DNA of 64,000 bases from a virus: positions 1 through 64,000 of IMG/VR virus record IMGVR_UViG_3300046171_000225; one strand, written 5' to 3'. The translations under genes and the position numbers were made by a program. The notes below the pieces were generated by a model. The model was not told where the DNA came from, searched no databases, and saw nothing but the letters and a program-made list of their open reading frames with translations. Positions 51,627 to 63,293 of the stretch are shown here, piece after piece (position 1 is the first letter of the stretch; each line of letters starts with the position of its first letter).

Positions 51627-54600
51627 ATGTCAGACAGAGAATCGGTAGACCCAAGACAGCAGGTGCCGAACGAACAACAATCTGAAGTTACGCAAGTCCC
51701 ACAGGGGCTTGATCTTAGTCTATATGATATTGACGTCTCTGAGCCTTTTGGGTTTGGTACAGGACGTGACGACCCCCAACATCCTTCGATCATTTACGAT
51801 AAAGAAACAGGGTTTGCTATAAACAATAACCCAGTAGATGGCGAGTTTGGAGATCCGAGAGTCAGAGATCTTCAAATCTTAATGATTAACGAGCTAGATT
51901 CTAAAGGTAGAACGAATCAGCCAAGTGATGTACTCCCAGACTTTGGTGTTGATGGCATTTGGCGCTGCGAGACCCAGGCTGCGTTCAACAGGCTCTTAGA
52001 TGAAAAAGGTGTACAAAATAAAACAGTTGGTAATTCTGAAAGCTACGACTGTCCCGGATTGGAGCAGTTTGTTTTAGATGAGAAAACTCTTGAACAGCTA
52101 AAAGGAAAAAAGGGCGAGGAAGAAAGTTCAACCTCAAAAGATGGAGGTGCAACTGATAAAGACGCAGAAGCAGCAAATGAAGTAGTAGATCTGAACGATC
52201 AATGTATCGTTATATCAAACTTAAGGCAGATTCTTAAAGAAAGCAGTGCTCCAAAAGGAGATAAATATCCATCTTTCTTTATGGGATCGGCAGACGAGTC
52301 ATTGAGTAGGGATCAGATAAGGTACAACAGGATACACAAAATAACTACAACAGACCCTGCCACAATGATGAACAGATTGCGGATGACCAGGGGTGCCCTA
52401 GAGTTCTTGGGCATTAGGCATTGGCAACTTTCTCAGCTTGTTCCCACTATTAGAATCTATAAGCAATACCCGCAAGGTAAAAATAAACCACCGAGAGAGG
52501 TGGAAATCAAATTTAATTCTTTTGTAGATCCAATAACTGATTTACAAGACATGCTTAATAGTAGAGAACAAAGAGGTGTAGGAGTTGGAATTGAGTATCT
52601 TCAATATAGTCTAATAGGTCCTAACCCAGACGTAGCAAAAAAGCAGGTAATTGGAAAATTAGCTATTTATGCTCAAAACTTTAACGAACTTTTTAAAACA
52701 AGGAGAGGCTTTGATCAAGACGGCGTAGAATTTGAGGGAGGATATAGAATCATAGACCTTCTCCTGCAATCTTTAGGAACTGCGGGTAGAATAAACGATC
52801 CAAATAATTATTCCTTAAAAATAGTTGTTGGATGGGGCGCTAGTGGAGGCGGAGGTATTTTAGAACCAGCGTTAGTAAGTGCGATAAAAGAAATGCAACT
52901 CACAACGATTGTTTCTGTAGGAGACTATGATATTGACATTCAAGATGATCAAGGCGGCTCTGTCAGGGTGGTACTAGATTTTTATCCAAGATTAGAAGCA
53001 GTCACTCTTGCTCGGGGCTCAGATGTTCTTGCCGATGAAGCAACAAGAAAAAAAAGAAAACAAAGAAAAAACATCTTTGATAAATTAGTAAGAAGTGAAA
53101 AACTTGTAGACCCTGAAAAGCCTGATGGAGGCAGTGAAAGGTGTCTTTCTGCGGAACAGACAAGAGAACTGAAAGCTTCTTATGACAAGGATGTCCGCAG
53201 AGATATACAAAATTCTCAATCCACACTCTTAAGAAAATTACAAGAATCTAATCTTATTTACTCGCTAATATTACGCACACCAACAGACGAAGAGGTCAAA
53301 GAGCAGATTAATGCTATAGCTACACAAACAGCCAGCTCGCTAACAGGGGAGCTTGCAGGCAGTTTAGATTTAGCGAGGCTCATGCTTGAGTTTAAAAAGA
53401 ATCAAGTAGTAGAAGTTTTAAATGATCCCTTTAATGATGAAAGACTGAAAAATGACAGAGACTTGCTATTAAACCCAGAGACACGCATGGTTCAGTATTT
53501 CTTCTTAGGAGATTTGCTTGCTGTAGCTTTGGATAATGTTTTTGAAGGCGAAGACAAAGATATTTATCTTGGAAATGTTAAATATATTATGGGACCGGTT
53601 ACTTTCCGGGATAATAATGGGCAAGACATAACAATAAATATAGCGGATATTCCCATATCGGTTGACCTGTTTGTAGATTTCATGGCTAAAAAAATGCCAA
53701 CAGGGATAGAATCAGGAACAGCTTATCCTCTCTATCTGTTTACAAGAGACGTTGTAAAAGACTTAGCGTTTGAAGCGTTTGGGCCTGAATGTAATTTTGG
53801 ATTAGACAGAAAAAATGTTGTCTTAGCAACTGATATTATGGGAGTTGATTCTGGGAGTGGAGGGACAGATCAACTAGATTCAAAATACAACGTAAAGGGG
53901 TCTGTTGATGGTCGTAAAAAAGATAGAAAATCAAAAGATTCTTCCCAAAACGTAGAGATGAATTCAAAAAATGGTTCGGGATTGTTAGACATTGACCAAT
54001 TTAAGATCGATTTTGACAACCCAGATAATAGTACATTCATTTTTGATACAAGAAACCAAAAGAGCCTAAGAGATAGATATACTTACCTTGTAATCTATGC
54101 CAATACTGAAGACCCAGATTTGGGACCGCCGAGCGAAGGTGAGACTAGGTTCCGTAGAGATGCTGCACAAGGAGTTTACCATGTAACTAGTGGCTTAGAT
54201 CGTGGACTGTTGAAAAGTGTGTCATTTAGTAAGGCTAGTAATACCTCTAAATATTTGAGAGCTACTCGTGTACAACAAAACAGAGAGTTACCGGACCTTC
54301 AACTAGCAAATTATTTCGAAATTACTGCCGAGATGTATGGGAATGCTTTATTTTGGCCAGGAAGCTATATCTACCTGAACACAAGAGGTCTAGGGTCAGA
54401 CCTCTTGGGAGACCCCTCTGATAATCAGACTCCGTCTCCATCGAACATTCTTGGAATTGGTGGTTACCACCAGATCAAAAGAATTGATAATACAATAAAC
54501 ACCTCCGGATTTAACACTAAAGTGTCTGCTCTATTTTTTAAAAGTGGAGATGGCCGACCTAAAAATCTGGTTAAGAGCCCGACTCCACCAGAGCTTGTTA

Positions 54601-54683
54601 ACAAGTCCTGCGAAGATAATTTCTTTGCAAAAGCGAAAGAACAATTAAATGATGCATTACTTAATACTGGGGAGGACAAGTAA
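51627..54683 (+). CDS. Large baseplate hub protein with N-terminal peptidoglycan-binding motif
   Basis: 1,018 residues. Residues ~70-125 look like PG_binding_1 repeats (NNPVDGEFGDPRVRDLQ and FGVDGIWRCETQAAFNRLL), followed by a charged linker (~150-180). The remainder is alpha/beta, with YFEITAEMYGNALFWPGSYI near the C-terminus resembling hub/tube-cap folds. A peptidoglycan-binding domain at the hub fits cell-wall penetration by the tail tip, the role of gp5/gp27 in T4. No lysozyme catalytic motif is seen. Confidence 0.65.
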   Translation: MSDRESVDPRQQVPNEQQSEVTQVPQGLDLSLYDIDVSEPFGFGTGRDDPQHPSIIYDKETGFAINNNPVDGEFGDPRVRDLQILMINELDSKGRTNQPSDVLPDFGVDGIWRCETQAAFNRLLDEKGVQNKTVGNSESYDCPGLEQFVLDEKTLEQLKGKKGEEESSTSKDGGATDKDAEAANEVVDLNDQCIVISNLRQILKESSAPKGDKYPSFFMGSADESLSRDQIRYNRIHKITTTDPATMMNRLRMTRGALEFLGIRHWQLSQLVPTIRIYKQYPQGKNKPPREVEIKFNSFVDPITDLQDMLNSREQRGVGVGIEYLQYSLIGPNPDVAKKQVIGKLAIYAQNFNELFKTRRGFDQDGVEFEGGYRIIDLLLQSLGTAGRINDPNNYSLKIVVGWGASGGGGILEPALVSAIKEMQLTTIVSVGDYDIDIQDDQGGSVRVVLDFYPRLEAVTLARGSDVLADEATRKKRKQRKNIFDKLVRSEKLVDPEKPDGGSERCLSAEQTRELKASYDKDVRRDIQNSQSTLLRKLQESNLIYSLILRTPTDEEVKEQINAIATQTASSLTGELAGSLDLARLMLEFKKNQVVEVLNDPFNDERLKNDRDLLLNPETRMVQYFFLGDLLAVALDNVFEGEDKDIYLGNVKYIMGPVTFRDNNGQDITINIADIPISVDLFVDFMAKKMPTGIESGTAYPLYLFTRDVVKDLAFEAFGPECNFGLDRKNVVLATDIMGVDSGSGGTDQLDSKYNVKGSVDGRKKDRKSKDSSQNVEMNSKNGSGLLDIDQFKIDFDNPDNSTFIFDTRNQKSLRDRYTYLVIYANTEDPDLGPPSEGETRFRRDAAQGVYHVTSGLDRGLLKSVSFSKASNTSKYLRATRVQQNRELPDLQLANYFEITAEMYGNALFWPGSYIYLNTRGLGSDLLGDPSDNQTPSPSNILGIGGYHQIKRIDNTINTSGFNTKVSALFFKSGDGRPKNLVKSPTPPELVNKSCEDNFFAKAKEQLNDALLNTGEDK

Positions 54684-55963
54684 TGTCTATAAGAAAGTTC
54701 ATAGGCAGCAATAGTTTGAGCAATTCTAGAATTTTGTTTAATGAAAGAGCAAAATATAGAAACGAAGCAATCAGTAAAAGACTTCAAGCAGAGTATCCAG
54801 GAGTTTTTAGGGACTTTTGGTTTATTGAAAATATGTATTACGGTAAAATAAACAGATTGCACGAGTTTATGATTCCAAAAGAGTCTAAAATAAAAACTGT
54901 TCAACTAGATGGTGGTGAAAGTTTATTTGTTCTTGACTTTGTTGCTGACGCTATAAATGGTTTCCTCAAAAGCTATGACCAAGCCTTGAGCAACGGGAAG
55001 ATATCTAGACAAGATCAGATTTTATCTTCTTTGGTACCTGTAAAAGGTTATACAAATGTTTTATTCGACTATGAAAAGAATGTGAGATTATTAAGAGATA
55101 CTATCCATCCTATTTTAATTCAAAAAGAAAAACAAATTCATGATTTTGAATCTTTTGTTGATCTGTTTATGGAGATGCTCTTTGAAAATTATACTAATAA
55201 TCCATTTACTCTTACTGGATTTGTTTCTAGTAAACTTTCTCCCCTATCCATGACTGGCTTATTCGTTGAGATGTCTAATCTAGACTACGGAAAGGATCAA
55301 GAAAAAATAACAGAACTTATTGATAAACCAAGTTATACTTTCTTTATAAAGAATTGTGCTAAGCATGGATTTTTAATTGATGTTAACGTCCCATGGAGAG
55401 TCTGTGCTAACATCGGCTCACTAGAAATGGAAAGCTACATGGCGAAGTACGATTCTAACAAAGACAAAGTCTTCAACGATTACTATGATGTATCGTACAA
55501 TAGAGATATAGAATATATGATGAATTATCTATTATCTTTTTATAATAGATTTGTTACATTTAGACCTTTTATTCAGAATGAAAAAGTAGATGGCTTTAAT
55601 ATACATAGATATGTCACTCGAAGAAAGAAGTTGACTAAAGAAGAACTAGACTTTAAGTATGATAATAAATTTAGATTAAATTTATATATTGATTTAAGAA
55701 ATAGAGAGACCAATAGTCGGTATAAAAAAGCCTTAATAAATAAAATAAAGAACAATGCTATGGGATATCTTGACTCTCTAGGAATGCAGTCAGCGATGTC
55801 GTACATAGATCAGCAGTTCAAAGGGTTTTTAAACGACAGAGGGGCGTACAACAGTCTCAATATTGCCTCAGAGTTGGAGCTAGAAAACGCACAAGCTTCT
55901 GGACAGGACTTGCAGGAAGTGCTAGACCGTTCGGTAGCAGAGTCTAGAAAGACGATTTACTAG
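54683..55963 (+). CDS. Large helical tail/baseplate protein of unknown function
   Basis: 426 residues, ATG overlapping the upstream stop. Aromatic- and Lys-rich, with no motif I can name. The C-terminus is acidic and helical (ELELENAQASGQDLQEVL). Position after hub genes suggests a wedge or baseplate part. It is the last virion-type gene before the replication genes, with ten bases to the polymerase start. Confidence 0.6.
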   Translation: MSIRKFIGSNSLSNSRILFNERAKYRNEAISKRLQAEYPGVFRDFWFIENMYYGKINRLHEFMIPKESKIKTVQLDGGESLFVLDFVADAINGFLKSYDQALSNGKISRQDQILSSLVPVKGYTNVLFDYEKNVRLLRDTIHPILIQKEKQIHDFESFVDLFMEMLFENYTNNPFTLTGFVSSKLSPLSMTGLFVEMSNLDYGKDQEKITELIDKPSYTFFIKNCAKHGFLIDVNVPWRVCANIGSLEMESYMAKYDSNKDKVFNDYYDVSYNRDIEYMMNYLLSFYNRFVTFRPFIQNEKVDGFNIHRYVTRRKKLTKEELDFKYDNKFRLNLYIDLRNRETNSRYKKALINKIKNNAMGYLDSLGMQSAMSYIDQQFKGFLNDRGAYNSLNIASELELENAQASGQDLQEVLDRSVAESRKTIY

Positions 55964-55973
55964 CGGAGTTAGT

Positions 55974-57155
55974 GTGCTGTTCCAAACGTTAGACGATAAA
56001 AACGAGTGTGTTGCGTTCTACGAAGATGGTGAGTTTGTCGAGTCTTACCGTGATTCTATGACACACAGCTGGACTGCACCTGCTTATTTGCAGGGATACG
56101 ATATCGAGTACGCTTACCTTTACGCGAAGTCAAGCTTGAAGGATGTTTGTCCTGAGCACCTGACCAAGGAGCTGACCGAATGTTTAGACTTGCTGCGTGC
56201 CTACACACTCTCGATGATGGAAGCACAGCTAGACCTGAATCAGCACTGCTTCTACGATTTGGTGCCCGAGAGTTTTCTGAAGAGATTTTGTGAAATCAAA
56301 AACAAGGTTGCAGCACATGTATTTGAGAACTTCAAGAAGCCAAAAGAGTATAAGTTTTTAAAGCAACTGCACGAACTAACACAAGAGATTTCTAATAGGA
56401 AACTAAATTTAGACTTCGAAGATAGCATTAGATTAGCGGATCTCTCTAAGCCATCTCGTAGTAAGCTTCGTAGTGTCAAGAGGTCGGCACCCTACGTCAG
56501 GTATAATATCTTTGGCTCTAGGACAGGGAGGCTCACTACTAGGCCAAACAGTTTTCCGATCCTGAACATCAATAAGGAGTTTCGGAGTGCTATCCGGCCT
56601 ACTAATGATTTCTTCGTAGAGCTTGACTACAATGCTTTTGAACTAAGAGTTCTACTCTATCTTATGGATAAAGAGCAGCCCAACATCGATATCCATGAGT
56701 GGAATATTCAAAATGTTTATCGAGGGGCTGGCAGCAGAGACGAAGCTAAAACAAGAATCTTTTCTTGGCTTTACAACTTAGAGTCTGACGATCATTTATC
56801 CGAGCGTGCATATAACAGGCAGGAAATCATTGACAGGTACTGGGATGGCCAAAGAATTATCAATCCTTTCGGAAGATCGATAGAGGCTGATAAGTTCCAT
56901 GCCTTGTCGTACCTAATCCAGAGCACTGCCGCTGATATAGTCTTGAGGCAGATGGTAAAGCTGCACAAAATGTTAACTGAGGTTAAGTCACACATTGCCT
57001 TTACAATTCACGATTCTGTAGTGATCGACATGTCATACGACGATGCACATCTATTGCCGGAACTTAAGAAACAGTTCTCTACTTATAGGGGCACAGAGTT
57101 CTTGACCAATATGTCAGTCGGGGCTAACTTTGGAAACATGGAGACCAGAAAATGA
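55974..57155 (+). CDS. polA: Family A DNA polymerase, polymerase domain only
   Basis: 393 residues, GTG start with GCGGAG upstream. Polymerase motifs are clear: TGRLTTRPNSFPILN (184-198), motif A LDYNAFELRVL with Asp218, O-helix RDEAKTRIFSWLY with Arg255, Lys259, Phe263 and Tyr267, QSTAADIV (316-323) and motif C IHDS with His346 and Asp347. The equivalent of E. coli Phe762 is Phe263. The 3'-5' exonuclease domain is absent; the 5' nuclease is a separate gene (60946). T4 uses family B gp43, so this is a replacement or an additional polymerase. Motif C has HDS and not the usual HDE. Confidence 0.85.
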   Translation: MLFQTLDDKNECVAFYEDGEFVESYRDSMTHSWTAPAYLQGYDIEYAYLYAKSSLKDVCPEHLTKELTECLDLLRAYTLSMMEAQLDLNQHCFYDLVPESFLKRFCEIKNKVAAHVFENFKKPKEYKFLKQLHELTQEISNRKLNLDFEDSIRLADLSKPSRSKLRSVKRSAPYVRYNIFGSRTGRLTTRPNSFPILNINKEFRSAIRPTNDFFVELDYNAFELRVLLYLMDKEQPNIDIHEWNIQNVYRGAGSRDEAKTRIFSWLYNLESDDHLSERAYNRQEIIDRYWDGQRIINPFGRSIEADKFHALSYLIQSTAADIVLRQMVKLHKMLTEVKSHIAFTIHDSVVIDMSYDDAHLLPELKKQFSTYRGTEFLTNMSVGANFGNMETRK

Positions 57156-57412
57156 AGCCAACACCAGAAGAGATTGCATCTATCAACGAGGAAGCACTAA
57201 TAGCAGATGGGCTAGGTGATGCTATAATTGGCTACGGGAATCAGTATCCAAAGAACCCTGTAGTTATCTACGACTACGATAAGTGCGTGGATATACTCAT
57301 AACGCAGGGAATGTCTTACCATGACGCAGTAGAGTGGATGGAATTCAATGTTGTTTGCTCATACATGGGAGAGGGCACACCAATTTTTATGAGGAATTTC
57401 GAATGGATGTAG
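57152..57412 (+). CDS. Conserved small phage protein
   Basis: 86 residues, ATG overlapping the polymerase stop. The C-terminal YDYDKCVDILITQGMSYHDA, VEWMEFNV and GEGTPIF pattern is a widespread small phage family with no known function to me. The stop overlaps the tubulin-like gene start, so the three are translationally coupled. Confidence 0.7.
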   Translation: MKPTPEEIASINEEALIADGLGDAIIGYGNQYPKNPVVIYDYDKCVDILITQGMSYHDAVEWMEFNVVCSYMGEGTPIFMRNFEWM

Positions 57413-58233
57413 TAGGACTTGGCACAGCAGCATGTAATATTGCGGATCATTTTTCGAGATACCCACAGTACACAGTCCATAAGATTGATGTGGGTATTGA
57501 AGGAGATCGCTGTTTTTCTGTAGGTCAGCAAAGAAATGCTGAGGATTACGAATCTAATGTTCCGGTTATGAACGATTTCTTTTCTGGTTTTGGTGACGAG
57601 GTACTGTTCATCATAGCAGGATCAGGCAATATCTCCGGGATGGCTCTCAGAGTCCTAGAGCAAATAAAGAACAAGAGAATAACAATTCTGTATATTAGCC
57701 CAAACAAGAAGACCTTAACAGGGAAGAAAAAGCTTCTAGAAAGAGCAACCTTTGGTATTCTTCAAGAGTATGCTAGATCCGGGCTTCTGGAAGAAGTTGT
57801 TATTGTTAGCAATGAAAAAGTTGCGGAGATCGTAGGGGACTTACCAGTAATCGGATACTACAGGAAGATTAACGAGCTCATAGTATCTACTCTACACTTC
57901 ATAAATATTTTCAACAGAACAGAACATGTTTACGGCGTCTTAGAAGACAAAGATGATGTGTGTGCAATAACAACAATCGGTATACTGAATCCGGAGACAT
58001 CTAAAGAACAAATGCTCTTTGATCTTGACCTTATTCGCGAAAAGGACTACCAGTACGCTCTTAGAAACAGTGTGCTCATGAGTGAATCAAAGGTTATACC
58101 TACCATTGAAGGCCATATGGAAGAAAAAACAGAAACCTGGTTGACAAAAATATCGTATAGGATATACTCCACCGAGTACGAGACAGACTATGGGTATGTG
58201 ATGTACAGAACATCTAAGGTACAGGGGGAGTAG
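57403..58233 (+). CDS. Tubulin/FtsZ-superfamily-like protein
   Basis: 276 residues from ATG 57403, ten bases inside the previous gene; the longer frame starts within that gene without a ribosome-binding site. The nucleotide-binding half follows FtsZ in order: T1-type GLGTAACN (residues 5-12, FtsZ GxGx4N), LFIIAGSGNISG (68-79) for FtsZ AGxGGGTGTG, ITILYISPN (93-101), then VSNEKVAEIVGDLP (135-148) for IPNDKLLEV...LP, and INELI (156-160) for the guanine-contacting ADEVL. The T7 catalytic loop is not recognisable and the G-loop lacks the TG core, so GTP hydrolysis may be weak or lost. The C-terminal ~100 residues are unassigned. Alignment is by eye. Confidence 0.65.
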   Translation: MDVVGLGTAACNIADHFSRYPQYTVHKIDVGIEGDRCFSVGQQRNAEDYESNVPVMNDFFSGFGDEVLFIIAGSGNISGMALRVLEQIKNKRITILYISPNKKTLTGKKKLLERATFGILQEYARSGLLEEVVIVSNEKVAEIVGDLPVIGYYRKINELIVSTLHFINIFNRTEHVYGVLEDKDDVCAITTIGILNPETSKEQMLFDLDLIREKDYQYALRNSVLMSESKVIPTIEGHMEEKTETWLTKISYRIYSTEYETDYGYVMYRTSKVQGE

Positions 58234-58482
58234 GTGAAAGCGTATATGGTTTCTTTTCGTAAGTCTGATGGTTCAATCAGGCAAATGATCTTTTCGAAAA
58301 TAAAAGACTTGCCATCTTCTTTCGTTAATGGTAAACTAACCGGCACCGGAAAGCAAAAGACTCTGTCTGAGGGTCGAGAGCTTGTCTGGGATTTGGAAAA
58401 GAACGCATTTAGAGTTGTAAATTATAATACACTTGTTGGCAATATTGTCGAAGTGAATTATGATGAAGGAAAGTTAATTTAA
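58234..58482 (+). CDS. Small SH3-barrel-type phage protein
   Basis: 82 residues with GTG start after GGGGGAGTAG. A beta-strand pattern (MVSFRKSDGSIRQMIF, ELVWDLEKNAFRVVNY) resembles the SH3-barrel small proteins found in many phage replication regions. No motif indicates function. Sits between tubulin-like and gp32-like genes. Confidence 0.6.
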   Translation: MKAYMVSFRKSDGSIRQMIFSKIKDLPSSFVNGKLTGTGKQKTLSEGRELVWDLEKNAFRVVNYNTLVGNIVEVNYDEGKLI

Positions 58483-58553: not shown

Positions 58554-59327
58554 ATGGGTATCAATCTAGATAAGATGAGAGCAAAGTTGGATCGACTTGA
58601 GGGCAAGAACGCTCGCAAGGAGAGCATTTTTTGGAAGCCTACCGATGGCGAGCAGACCATCCGTATTCTTCCGGTAGCGGACGGCGACCCCTTCAAGGAG
58701 TTCTGGTTCCACTACAACCTTGGCAACAATCGTGGATTCCTTTCGCCAAAGCGTAACTACGGCGAGGCAGACCCACTCGATGATTTTGTCCGTAAGCTTT
58801 TTAACGAAGGCACTGATGACTCTGTCAAGATGGCCAAGAACCTCATGGCACGCCAGCGATTCTTCTCCGCAGTTATTGTTCGCGGTGAGGAAGAGAAGGG
58901 TGTTCGTCTCTGGGGCTATGGCAAGACAGCATACAAGGATCTTCTCGACCTTGTCATGAACGAGGACTATGGGGACATTACAGACCCTGAGACAGGCACT
59001 GACCTCGTTCTCAAGTACGGCAAGCCTCCTGGAGCTTCCTACCCACAGACAAGCCTTACACCGCGTCGTCGTCCGTCTCCCTTGAGCAGTAACGAAGATC
59101 AGATGGCTGATTGGGTTCATACTGTACCAGACTTCGACAAGGCATTCGCAGAGTCTCGCAAGACCCCAGACGAGGTTGGCCAAATGCTAGACGAGTGGCT
59201 TGCAAGCGAGTCTGATGGTGGAGAGACAGAGCGTTATGGCGATAATTCTGCTAAAAAAGAGTCCAATTCCTTCAATAGTGTGGACGATAAGCTAAACGAA
59301 CTACTAAATAGTAGCGCAACCATTTGA
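58554..59327 (+). CDS. 32: Single-stranded DNA-binding protein (gp32-like)
   Basis: 257 residues, AGGAG upstream. N-terminal KLDRLEGKN basic segment (T4 gp32 cooperative region), an OB-fold core (IRILPVADGDPFKEFWFHYNL, SAVIVRG, VRLWGYGK) and an acidic Ser-rich C-terminus ending LNELLNSSATI. T4 gp32 carries a zinc-binding Cys/His cluster; this protein has no cysteine, so the zinc site is lost. It coats ssDNA in replication and recombination. Codon use is C-ending, suggesting high expression. A terminator follows. Confidence 0.88.
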   Translation: MGINLDKMRAKLDRLEGKNARKESIFWKPTDGEQTIRILPVADGDPFKEFWFHYNLGNNRGFLSPKRNYGEADPLDDFVRKLFNEGTDDSVKMAKNLMARQRFFSAVIVRGEEEKGVRLWGYGKTAYKDLLDLVMNEDYGDITDPETGTDLVLKYGKPPGASYPQTSLTPRRRPSPLSSNEDQMADWVHTVPDFDKAFAESRKTPDEVGQMLDEWLASESDGGETERYGDNSAKKESNSFNSVDDKLNELLNSSATI

Positions 59328-59702: not shown

Positions 59703-60833
59703 GTGGCGAAGAAGCAAAAGACTGGTTCCGTATCCGTAGGCGATATGATGAAGAGAATGAATAAGCGATACGGAATGCAGGTAGCCCATGATCTGACACA
59801 AGAGAACCCAACAGAGGTTAAGGGATGGATCCCAACTGGTTCACGATGGCTAGATTCGATCATTTGCAAAGGCAAGAAAGCAGGAATCCCTATGGGCAAG
59901 ATTACTGAGATTGCTGGACTTTCCGCAACTGGCAAGAGTTACATGGCCGCTTGCATTGCAGCAAACGCTCAGAAGATGGGCCAGTATGTTGTTTACTTCG
60001 ACTCAGAGAGTGCGATTGATCCTTCGTTCCTATCCAAAGCTGGTATAGATACTAGTCCTGAATACTTTATGTATGTTCAAGCTATTACTGTAGAGCAAGT
60101 TTTGGAGATGGTCGAAGAGTTTATTGGGATGGATCAGCCTATGGTTTTCATCTGGGACTCGATTGCAAACACCCCAACGGACTCTGATAAAGAGGGTAGC
60201 TTCAATCCAAATGCCTCGGTTGGCAAAAAAGCAAGAACTCTTTCTTTGGCATTTCAAAAGCTTACTATTCCTCTTGCGAATGCAAAATGTACATTGCTTT
60301 GTCTAAACCAGTTAAAGCAAAAGATTGCTTCCACCCACGCCGAAAGAATGGAAGCCATGTCTGAGCCTCTGACCACGCCGGGAGGTAAGTCTGTTGTTTA
60401 TGCGTCTTCTCTCCGTATTTGGTTAACTAAGCGTAAGTCTAAGGCTTCTTTTGTTCTTGACGACAATGGATTTACGATTGGTTCGGAAGTTAAGGCTACT
60501 CTTAAGAAGTCTCGGTTCGGCACTGAACGCCGCCAGTGCACTTTCCAGATTACTTGGGGAGATGATGAAGTTAGAATCATGGACGAGGAATCTTGGTTTG
60601 AGGCTATCAAAGGATCAGAATACATTAAGCAAAGCGGAGCTTGGTACACTCTTGTTTACGACAATGGCGACGAACAGAGATTCCAAGCTACAAAGTGGAT
60701 GAAACTTCTAGAAGATCCAAAATTCCGAAGCAGAGTTGAGGAGTTGATGGATCTTGAAGTTATTGGAAAGTATAAGGATAGAAAGGGCGATATCACAGCA
60801 TTTGAAGATGTTGACGCTCATCTTCCTGACTAA
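59703..60833 (+). CDS. uvsX: UvsX/RecA-type recombinase
   Basis: 376 residues; GTG start with TGGAGGT upstream. Walker A GLSATGKS (72-79), FDSESAID (catalytic Glu region), Walker B MVFIWDSIAN, and the DNA-binding loop with LNQLKQKI and EPLTTPGGKSVVYASSLR. T4 UvsX is 391 residues. It drives strand invasion with gp32 and the Mre11/Rad50 fusion for recombination-dependent replication. Followed by tRNA-Ser. Confidence 0.92.
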   Translation: MAKKQKTGSVSVGDMMKRMNKRYGMQVAHDLTQENPTEVKGWIPTGSRWLDSIICKGKKAGIPMGKITEIAGLSATGKSYMAACIAANAQKMGQYVVYFDSESAIDPSFLSKAGIDTSPEYFMYVQAITVEQVLEMVEEFIGMDQPMVFIWDSIANTPTDSDKEGSFNPNASVGKKARTLSLAFQKLTIPLANAKCTLLCLNQLKQKIASTHAERMEAMSEPLTTPGGKSVVYASSLRIWLTKRKSKASFVLDDNGFTIGSEVKATLKKSRFGTERRQCTFQITWGDDEVRIMDEESWFEAIKGSEYIKQSGAWYTLVYDNGDEQRFQATKWMKLLEDPKFRSRVEELMDLEVIGKYKDRKGDITAFEDVDAHLPD

Positions 60834-60945: not shown

Positions 60946-61908
60946 ATGAAAAGGGCAATGATAATAGACTGCATGAATATATATCTGCGGTCATATATAG
61001 TAGACCCAAGTCTCTCTACAAATGGCCACCCAATTGGTGGCTTTAAAGGTTTTCTGAAAACACTCCAGAAACTTTGTAGAGAGATAAAGCCTGATAAGGT
61101 TATAATTGCTTGGGACTGTGGCGGAGGGTCAAGAAAGCGAAAGACTCTTAACAAGAACTATAAAGCTGGTAGGTCCCCTGTTCGACTCAACAGAGAAGTA
61201 AGGAACATGACTCTGAGGGAAGAACAAGACAACAAGATATGGCAACAGATCAGGCTTTCTGAGTATCTAAATCAACTTGCTGTAATTCAGTATTGTATCG
61301 AAGACGTAGAAGCTGACGATATTATTTCATATCTGGTGCAAAACAAAAGACTGGCAGACTGGCAAAAGATTATCATCTCTAGTGACAAAGACTTTTACCA
61401 ATTGTGCGACGATAAGACGGTCATTTATAGGCCAACTCAAAAAGAAGTCTTAAACAAGTACTCGATTATTGAACAACACGGCATTCATCCTGTAAACTTT
61501 GCTCTTGCCAGAGCCATTGCCGGTGACCCTTCAGACAACTTAAAGGGTGTTAAAGGCGCTGGGCTGAAAACGATATCTAAAAGATTTCCTTTCATGATAG
61601 AAAACGAAGACTACTTAATAGAAGATATCGTAAAGGCATGCAAAGAAGAAGAGAAGAAGTTAGTAGTACATAATAGAATTCTGGAAAACGTCAGTTTGAT
61701 ACAGAACAACTATAGGTTGATGCAACTCTATAGTCCATCGTTATCTCCTACTGTTAAATCAAAGATCAACTACATACTAGAAAATGCAGACATAGAATTT
61801 AATTTAACTGAGCTTAGGAAAATGATGCTAGAAGATGGGTTTGGCGAGTGGGATAACACGGACCTCACAATCGCCATGAGAAAGATAGTTGCCAACGAAA
61901 AACAGTAG
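60946..61908 (+). CDS. 5'-3' exonuclease / flap endonuclease (T4 RNase H type)
   Basis: 320 residues from ATG 60946 after GGGGGAAAA; a longer frame would start inside the tRNA. The FEN pattern is complete: IIDCMNIYLRS, KVIIAWDCGGGSRKRK (Asp-containing loop), the acidic block EDVEADDIISYL, SSDKDFYQL and the helix-hairpin GDPSDNLKGVKGAGLKT. It would remove RNA primers and flaps. It replaces the 5' nuclease domain missing from the polymerase. Confidence 0.9.
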   Translation: MKRAMIIDCMNIYLRSYIVDPSLSTNGHPIGGFKGFLKTLQKLCREIKPDKVIIAWDCGGGSRKRKTLNKNYKAGRSPVRLNREVRNMTLREEQDNKIWQQIRLSEYLNQLAVIQYCIEDVEADDIISYLVQNKRLADWQKIIISSDKDFYQLCDDKTVIYRPTQKEVLNKYSIIEQHGIHPVNFALARAIAGDPSDNLKGVKGAGLKTISKRFPFMIENEDYLIEDIVKACKEEEKKLVVHNRILENVSLIQNNYRLMQLYSPSLSPTVKSKINYILENADIEFNLTELRKMMLEDGFGEWDNTDLTIAMRKIVANEKQ

Positions 61909-61931: not shown

Positions 61932-63293
61932 ATGGAAAAAACAAACTTTAGTCATTTTGGTAAGAACTTCCAAGAGGTACTTTGTTACCTCATTCTTGAA
62001 GACAGGCCGTTCGCAGATCAGATATTTGAAGTATTTGACATTACCTTTCTAGAGCTATCATATCTTCGTCTCTTCGTGAGCAAGATCATGGACTACAGAG
62101 AGAAGTACAGCGTTCATCCAACCACCAAGATCATGATGACTATTCTCAAGTCTGACTTGGAGAAAGAAAATGACATGCTTCAGAAACAAGTCAGAGATTA
62201 CTTTGCAAGAATTCAGATCATGGACTCTGTGCGAGAGACAGACTTTGTAAAAGATAAGTCTCTTGATTTCTGCCGGAAGCAGAAGCTTAAGGGTGCGATG
62301 CTAAAGTCAGTAGACCTACTTCAATCATCTTCCTTTGATGAGATTTCTAAGATCATTAATGACGCTCTTATTTTGGGAAGTGATTCTAATTTTGGCTACG
62401 ATTACTTAAAAGACTTTGAGAAGAGGTTTGAGCTGAAGGCCCGCAGTCCTGTATCTACAGGATGGTCTGAGATGGACGCTATCTGTCAAAGTGGTCTTGG
62501 TGTTGGTGAGCTAGGTGTCGTGATTGCTCCGACCGGTGCTGGAAAGTCTATGCACCTTACTCACTTGGGCTCTCAAGCTTTGATTAACGGCGTTAACGTT
62601 GTTCACTATACGCTTGAGCTTAGTGACACCACGATTGCATCAAGATACGATTCTTGCATCACAGGGGTGCCACTGAACGACTTGAGATCGTTCAAAGAAC
62701 TGATTTATGAAAGAGTAGAGAAGGTAAAGGGCACACTTATTGTAAAAGAGTACCCAACCAAGTCCGCTTCAACCAGAACCATTAGAAACCATTTGGAAAA
62801 GCTTTCTAACCGTGGTATAGATCCCGGCCTTATCATCGTAGACTACGGGGACCTCTTGAGGCCTGTTGTAAACAGAAAAGAGAAAAGAACTGAGTTAGAG
62901 TCAATCTACGAAGAACTTCGCGGTATCGCTCAGGATTACAACTGCCCAGTTTGGACTGCATCTCAGACAAACCGTTCTGGTTTGAATGCAGAGGTCATTA
63001 CCATGGAATCAATTTCAGAAGCATTTAGTAAGTGTTTCGTCGCAGATTTTATTTACACGGTATCTAGAACTGCTGACGACAAGACTTCTAATTCTGGTAG
63101 AGTTTATGTCGCTAAAAATAGAAATGGGCCTGACGGTCTCGTCTATCCCATCTTTATGGATACTAGCAATGTAAAAATTAGAGTTCTTCCGCCAAGCGAT
63201 GAAGAGGCAGAAGAAGTTAGTGTTAAGAGTCAGGCAGATGTCCTGAAAGAGAAATACAAGAAATTTAGACAGCAGCAAAGGGAGAATGCATAA
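61932..63293 (+). CDS. 41: Replicative DnaB-type helicase (gp41-like)
   Basis: 453 residues, GAGAGGGGG upstream. N-terminal helical domain, then RecA core: Walker A APTGAGKS (199-206), HYTLELSD, Walker B LIIVDYGDLL (~294-303), WTASQTNR and VAKNRNGPDG (arginine finger region). Close in size to T4 gp41. It unwinds the fork and partners with the primase at 23049. Confidence 0.9.
   Translation: MEKTNFSHFGKNFQEVLCYLILEDRPFADQIFEVFDITFLELSYLRLFVSKIMDYREKYSVHPTTKIMMTILKSDLEKENDMLQKQVRDYFARIQIMDSVRETDFVKDKSLDFCRKQKLKGAMLKSVDLLQSSSFDEISKIINDALILGSDSNFGYDYLKDFEKRFELKARSPVSTGWSEMDAICQSGLGVGELGVVIAPTGAGKSMHLTHLGSQALINGVNVVHYTLELSDTTIASRYDSCITGVPLNDLRSFKELIYERVEKVKGTLIVKEYPTKSASTRTIRNHLEKLSNRGIDPGLIIVDYGDLLRPVVNRKEKRTELESIYEELRGIAQDYNCPVWTASQTNRSGLNAEVITMESISEAFSKCFVADFIYTVSRTADDKTSNSGRVYVAKNRNGPDGLVYPIFMDTSNVKIRVLPPSDEEAEEVSVKSQADVLKEKYKKFRQQQRENA

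Follow-up and report, generated by a model that had tools for sequence, protein, structure and literature searches.

A predicted tubulin/FtsZ-fold protein encoded between DNA polymerase and SSB in the replication operon of uncultured T4-type phages

What kind of protein is encoded between the DNA polymerase and the single-stranded DNA-binding protein (SSB) of an uncultured phage, and what would a relative of tubulin be doing there? The window analysed here, the opening 64,000 nucleotides of a 163-kb virus record, carries at this place an ORF of 276 codons plus stop, named TubL here, amid the features listed in Table 1. TubL is a genuine gene on which purifying selection acts strongly, with dN/dS at ~0.07 or less in close pairs with usable dS. 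The 86-aa ORF upstream reaches past the TubL ATG, with an overlap of 10 bp up to its stop, the ORF that follows begins on the base directly past the TubL stop, and the reverse strand has many stops across this stretch. An alternative GTG start at 57334 would give a product of 299 aa; the alignments of relatives start at the ATG. Apparent internal stops in three relatives were rejected, since they lie upstream of the true start.

Table 1. Features of the replication region in the window and landmarks within TubL (window coordinates; conservation among 140 aligned relatives).
Feature	Coordinates	Strand	Basis or remark
Compact family-A DNA polymerase (PolA), 393 aa	55974..57155	+	Pfam PF00476, E 2.2e-14
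86-aa ORF, function unknown	57152..57412	+	PHROG 13182; confined to close relatives
TubL, tubulin/FtsZ-fold protein (by prediction), 276 aa	57403..58233	+	models, Foldseek, 142 distinct relatives in IMG/VR loci
T1 loop GLGTAACN, residues 5-12, start of nucleotide site	57415..57438	+	G5 98%, G7 98%, A9 95%
T4-position glycine-rich loop AGSGNISG, residues 72-79	57616..57639	+	family consensus GSGKISGA, not GGGTG(S/T)G
Family signature LQEYARSG, end of helix H5, residues 120-127	57760..57783	+	Q121 99%, R125 100%, S126 97%
T6 loop VSNEKV, residues 135-140	57805..57822	+	N137 99%; aligns with Asn of FtsZ PND
Core helix H7, residues 152-171	57856..57915	+	helix in model; N157 98%, aligns with Asp of FtsZ ADDVL
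Shortened, non-acidic T7/H8 region, residues 172-188	57916..57966	+	model and conservation
C-terminal (activation-type) domain	57967..58230	+	strands and helices in model, Foldseek alignments; ends at last strand and TSKVQGE
82-aa ORF (g82)	58234..58482	+	PHROG 1086; weak Sm-like/WYL_2 match
SSB	58554..59327	+	PHROG 1192, E 1.5e-25
UvsX-type recombinase	59703..60833	+	PHROG 97, E 1.3e-62
5'-3' exonuclease	60946..61908	+	PHROG 107, E 1.1e-25
DnaB-type replicative helicase	61932..63293	+	PHROG 19, E 6.6e-74

An AlphaFold2 model of the window TubL, made with an alignment of 12 family members (pLDDT 90.8, pTM 0.90), gave 643 matches at E ≤ 0.001 when compared with the PDB by Foldseek. All 50 of the listed best matches were FtsZ, TubZ, CetZ or tubulin, with 1fsz at the top (E 5.7e-12) and TM-scores of 0.65–0.74 on the query. 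Because the alignments span ~313 columns, that is, the whole chain, both domains are covered. Secondary-structure elements follow one another in superfamily order in the model and, as judged from two predicted structures and Foldseek, a nucleotide domain is joined by helix H7 to a C-terminal domain (residues 189–270); a C-terminal tail like those of PhuZ and TubZ is not present in the model. Among viral models, the best match, and the best structural match overall, was A0A6J5RW92 (E 2e-13, TM 0.79), a BFVD entry named 'FtsZ cell division GTPase' that comes from an uncultured Caudovirales phage; other leading matches there were phage tubulins including PhuZ. A0A6J5RW92 differs from TubL in having 452 aa and shares 13% identity with it; the likeness is structural, with kinship unestablished. 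A model of the distant relative L016 (~26–28% identical to the window TubL; pLDDT 88.2), built from a separate 40-sequence alignment, served as an independent check, and again all 50 listed PDB matches were FtsZ, CetZ, TubZ or tubulin (Foldseek; best E 2.2e-10). At the level of predicted fold, TubL is thus a distant relative of tubulin and FtsZ and, judging from the loops described below, a catalytically altered one.

The alternative that TubL is an ordinary Rossmann/NAD-type nucleotide-binding protein draws on its GxGxxG-like N-terminal motif and on Pfam TrkA_N, a Rossmann model, which matches nine of 48 members (best E 6e-5). Against it, the 50 listed structural matches of each of the two models are all FtsZ/tubulin and extend along the entire chain, H7 and C-terminal domain included, a dehydrogenase-type fold is not the best match for either model among these listed PDB entries, and FtsZ and PhuZ profiles put the TubL family first. 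We regard this reading as all but excluded.

Sequence evidence for the kinship between TubL and FtsZ is weak piece by piece and clear when taken together. No significant match to curated FtsZ/tubulin family models was found in Pfam or NCBIfam: the NCBIfam FtsZ model TIGR00065 scores the window TubL at E 0.0083 and 15.5 bits, against a cut-off of 295, and is seen in seven of 48 members, and Pfam Tubulin (PF00091) matches two of the 48 (best 0.065). Likewise, single-sequence searches of Pfam, PHROG and PDB (phmmer) with the window TubL yielded no significant match, profiles of 12 and 48 members found only chance matches among PDB sequences, and hhalign did not match the family to alignments of FtsZ and PhuZ, which were small (seven and six sequences); the method did recover PhuZ–FtsZ. 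The loci that were retrieved contain 1,904 ORFs with 150 codons or more, 199 of them TubL family. When profiles were used to rank these ORFs, the FtsZ profile placed TubL members in every one of ranks 1–50 (AUC 0.978) and the PhuZ profile in 44 of the top 50 (AUC 0.942); as members are not independent of one another, we count this as one family-level observation rather than 50. Moreover, HMM alignments repeatedly pair the FtsZ T6 segment ipNdkL with vsNkxv of the TubL family, and AFkaaDdvL with YYdKlNelI. The original prediction had placed TubL in the FtsZ/tubulin superfamily and named two results that would refute this, a plain Rossmann dehydrogenase fold and the lack of any FtsZ/tubulin match in sensitive profile searches. 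The kinship held at the level of predicted fold (two models, Foldseek), where the first of these is excluded; the second is half met, with single profiles below threshold and hhalign null, and the family ranking positive.

The landmarks on which that prediction rested, GLGTAACN, AGSGNISG, VSNEKV and INELI (residues 156–160, within H7), do occur in the order it gave, and conservation among the 140 aligned relatives shows that they are not due to chance. In the T4-position loop, G73 is conserved in 96% and G75 in 89%; the GGGTG(S/T)G signature of the FtsZ/tubulin superfamily (PMC2875224) is absent from the family consensus. The T6 loop comes after a strand at residues 131–136 in the model. Other conserved columns are D29 at the T2 position (91%), Y49 (96%), E50 (78%; acidic in 99%), L82 (100%), Y97 (97%), P100 (97%) and Q274 (92%), and the LQEYARSG signature has no recognised counterpart in FtsZ. 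The T7 region offers two columns, 176 and 179, as best-aligned candidates for the catalytic positions; an acidic residue occupies them in only 16% and 2% of relatives, respectively, and helix H8 is missing from the window TubL model. The claim that the catalytic loops are degenerate therefore held for T4 and T7. Column 185 is acidic in 70% of relatives and might take over part of the T7 role, a possibility that cannot be excluded. In S. aureus FtsZ, the T7-loop changes N208L, D210N and D213N each suppress assembly (PMC8936486). With the putative base-side landmarks conserved, the T7 acids gone and those FtsZ residues essential for assembly, we infer that the nucleotide side has been kept and the hydrolysis/assembly side rebuilt. 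The residue equivalences between TubL and FtsZ rest on weak HMM alignments and secondary-structure order, and pocket geometry was not inspected. A subclade (L134, L140, L145 and L150) has D/E-F-G where FtsZ has VDFAD; the T7 acid may have been retained or regained there, which would make these proteins a natural comparison set.

Relatives were located in IMG/VR through the neighbouring UvsX and PolA genes, by then reading the adjoining genes, which reaches down to 26–30% identity; two alignment-based scans confirmed at least 580 and at least 569 relatives. None was detected in isolate phages by tblastn with three members, nor in a scan of GTDB genomes. Over the 142 distinct loci, PolA is the nearest annotated gene upstream of TubL in 99 of the 101 with enough sequence, and downstream come SSB, with or without g82, and then UvsX; about half of the loci have g82 in the gap between TubL and SSB. 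When loci were picked by PolA alone, TubL was present in all 77 whose sequence shows the region, a set drawn from the best 80 by similarity and so covering relatives at roughly ≥42% PolA identity. One locus, L194, has no TubL within 2.3 kb after PolA; small inserted genes take up the end of its stretch, which leaves presence there undecided. All 12 large contigs carry TubL, in single copy in 11. The twelfth, the 84-kb record L022, has an intact TubL and, ~1 kb downstream, a 44-aa fragment of a second copy (L022:444-575), a partial duplication; a possible loss of TubL in L022 was rejected, the intact copy being in the record along with the fragment. Mean pairwise identity is 38% for TubL and 44% for PolA, and the two are correlated (Spearman 0.73). 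A fixed place between polymerase and SSB and a near-universal single copy are thus shown, as is purifying selection; the fold is shown by prediction.

Structural genes of the phage are T4-type (gp17-like terminase, gp20-like portal, gp23-like capsid protein), and the terminases closest among isolates are those of the Flavobacterium phages 'immuto'. These are only 47% identical, which makes the phage a very distant T4 relative. Membership of the Far-T4 group is possible and no more than a lead; the Far-T4 survey makes no mention of tubulin or FtsZ. The original prediction was right that this is a T4-type phage (gp17-, gp20- and gp23-type genes) and that TubL lies beside the polymerase and SSB (PF00476 and PHROG matches, synteny). 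Its proposed role, positioning replication or organising virion assembly, remains inference only, and synteny favours replication over virion assembly.

What, then, might TubL do? By a modest margin, we favour the view that it belongs to a new family within the FtsZ/tubulin superfamily, one borne by phages and at the core of the replication operon in a large clade of uncultured T4-type phages, and serves as a nucleotide-loaded scaffold or switch, with no nucleotide-binding or assembly data as yet. TubL would still bind guanine nucleotide, inferred from the kept T1, T4, T6 and H7 landmarks; without binding data, we judge this rather more probable than its opposite. It probably does not hydrolyse nucleotide by the usual FtsZ/tubulin route, an inference from the loss of the acidic T7 loop. 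From binding without the usual hydrolysis would follow a nucleotide-loaded scaffold or switch, either monomeric or in static or non-canonical assemblies, that may organise or regulate phage DNA synthesis rather than form a dynamic cytoskeletal filament. For this replication role the balance of inference is moderately favourable; operon position suggests it and is no proof. Against the scaffold/switch reading stand the absent GGGTG(S/T)G signature, the null hhalign result and Immutovirus, which does without TubL despite a similar polymerase-to-helicase operon, where PolA is followed by two small ORFs, SSB, RecA, exonuclease and DnaB. HMM searches found no TubL in Immutovirus or RM378, both of them T4-type phages in culture whose family-A polymerase genes are short. 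A bolder version, in which a tubulin became a fixed component of the phage replication machine, acting as a switch or scaffold that carries guanine nucleotide without hydrolysing it and has LQxYARSG as a new interface, is one we lean slightly against.

The main rival holds that TubL is a cytomotive phage tubulin like PhuZ and TubZ, which would polymerise and hydrolyse GTP with its interface re-engineered, and would position or segregate phage DNA as it replicates. In its favour are the shared superfamily fold, the acidic residue before F-G that some members (for example L134, L140 and L145) keep at the T7 position, and a precedent in known phage tubulins, which centre the DNA of the phage (PMC4244570). 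Against it, the T7 acidic residues and H8 are missing in the window TubL and most relatives, TubL is without the C-terminal tail that PhuZ and TubZ use in filaments (PMC3678025), and its match to Pfam Tubulin is no better than noise, against 5e-7 and 4e-6 for two PhuZ controls. We consider this reading unlikely.

Two further alternatives seem very unlikely. TubL could be a poison of host division that mimics FtsZ, using one face to bind or cap the filaments of host FtsZ and so stopping division. An FtsZ fold with the nucleotide face kept and the T7 face changed would suit such a role, and several phages do block FtsZ, such as lambda with Kil and P1 with Icd (PMC3961180, PMC11897509). However, the 9–16% identity to FtsZ in structure alignments is too low to expect co-assembly, and a fixed place in a replication operon would be unusual, as anti-host genes usually come and go. 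Known phage FtsZ inhibitors, moreover, are small unrelated proteins. Alternatively, TubL could be a nucleotide-free accessory of the replisome, such as a factor that binds SSB or the polymerase, with the fold only a structural body. The loss of the T4 signature and T7 fits this, as does the strongest conserved feature, LQ(E/Q)YARSG, which lies outside known nucleotide contacts and resembles a new binding surface; nonetheless, the near-invariant N137, N157, G5 and G7, together with D29 (91%), are expected on the nucleotide side and are hard to explain without a ligand.

Compared with FtsZ (1fsz, 2vap, 3wgj and others), TubL has the two-domain fold, core H7, T1 GxG and, by alignment, the T6 Asn and the position of the H7 base-side residue, but lacks GGGTG(S/T)G, the acidic T7 loop, H8 and the C-terminal linker/peptide; listed structural alignments show the 9–16% identity already given. 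Among phages, tubulins are already known in the phiKZ-like jumbo group and in plasmid-like phages. Like PhuZ of the former, TubL is a phage-encoded superfamily protein, and the PhuZ profile ranks its family highly; unlike PhuZ, it has no TubZ_C_2 domain, tail or T7 acid and sits in a T4-type replication operon. TubZ_C_2 was not found in the window TubL by a Pfam scan with positive controls and was absent from the 13 virus records tested. TubZ of Bacillus plasmids (4ei7, 2xka) matches in fold (E 8.2e-12), but TubL is much shorter and tail-less, and no partition locus was seen in its operon. FtsZl1 (Makarova and Koonin, 2010; PMC2875224), suspected of forming filaments in a non-standard way or not at all, is likewise a diverged FtsZ–tubulin branch, but it keeps the T4 signature and is without recognisable T6–H7, the opposite of the TubL family.

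TubL thus represents a separate and far more diverged family, missing two superfamily hallmarks and not recognised by Pfam, NCBIfam or PHROGs, and no tubulin had been described for such a phage group or operon in the literature searched. As a single-copy operon gene in a widespread group of uncultured T4-type phages, it widens the FtsZ/tubulin superfamily and ties it directly to an operon with DNA polymerase and SSB. The family offers natural variants, with the catalytic loop lost and the nucleotide side kept, in which the tubulin fold without GTP hydrolysis could be tested; if the bolder version is true, this would be a tubulin serving DNA replication instead of acting as a cytoskeletal filament.

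Several minor features of these loci were also apparent. The window PolA has no evident 3'-5' exonuclease domain, and PolA genes are also short in Immutovirus (441 aa) and RM378. Nearly all relatives have, immediately upstream of PolA, two large proteins, 1018 aa (51627-54683) and 426 aa (54683-55963) in the window, with no PHROG match. The small g82 protein is conserved, and about half of the loci have its gene adjoining that of TubL or SSB; it may be a partner, which is no more than a possibility. Finally, the PolA–TubL junction may hold inserts of 1.5–2.5 kb of small ORFs (L194:6183-8467, and upstream of TubL in L063, L085 and L042), and several small ORFs in the L194 insert start behind a repeated GERRM-coding sequence.
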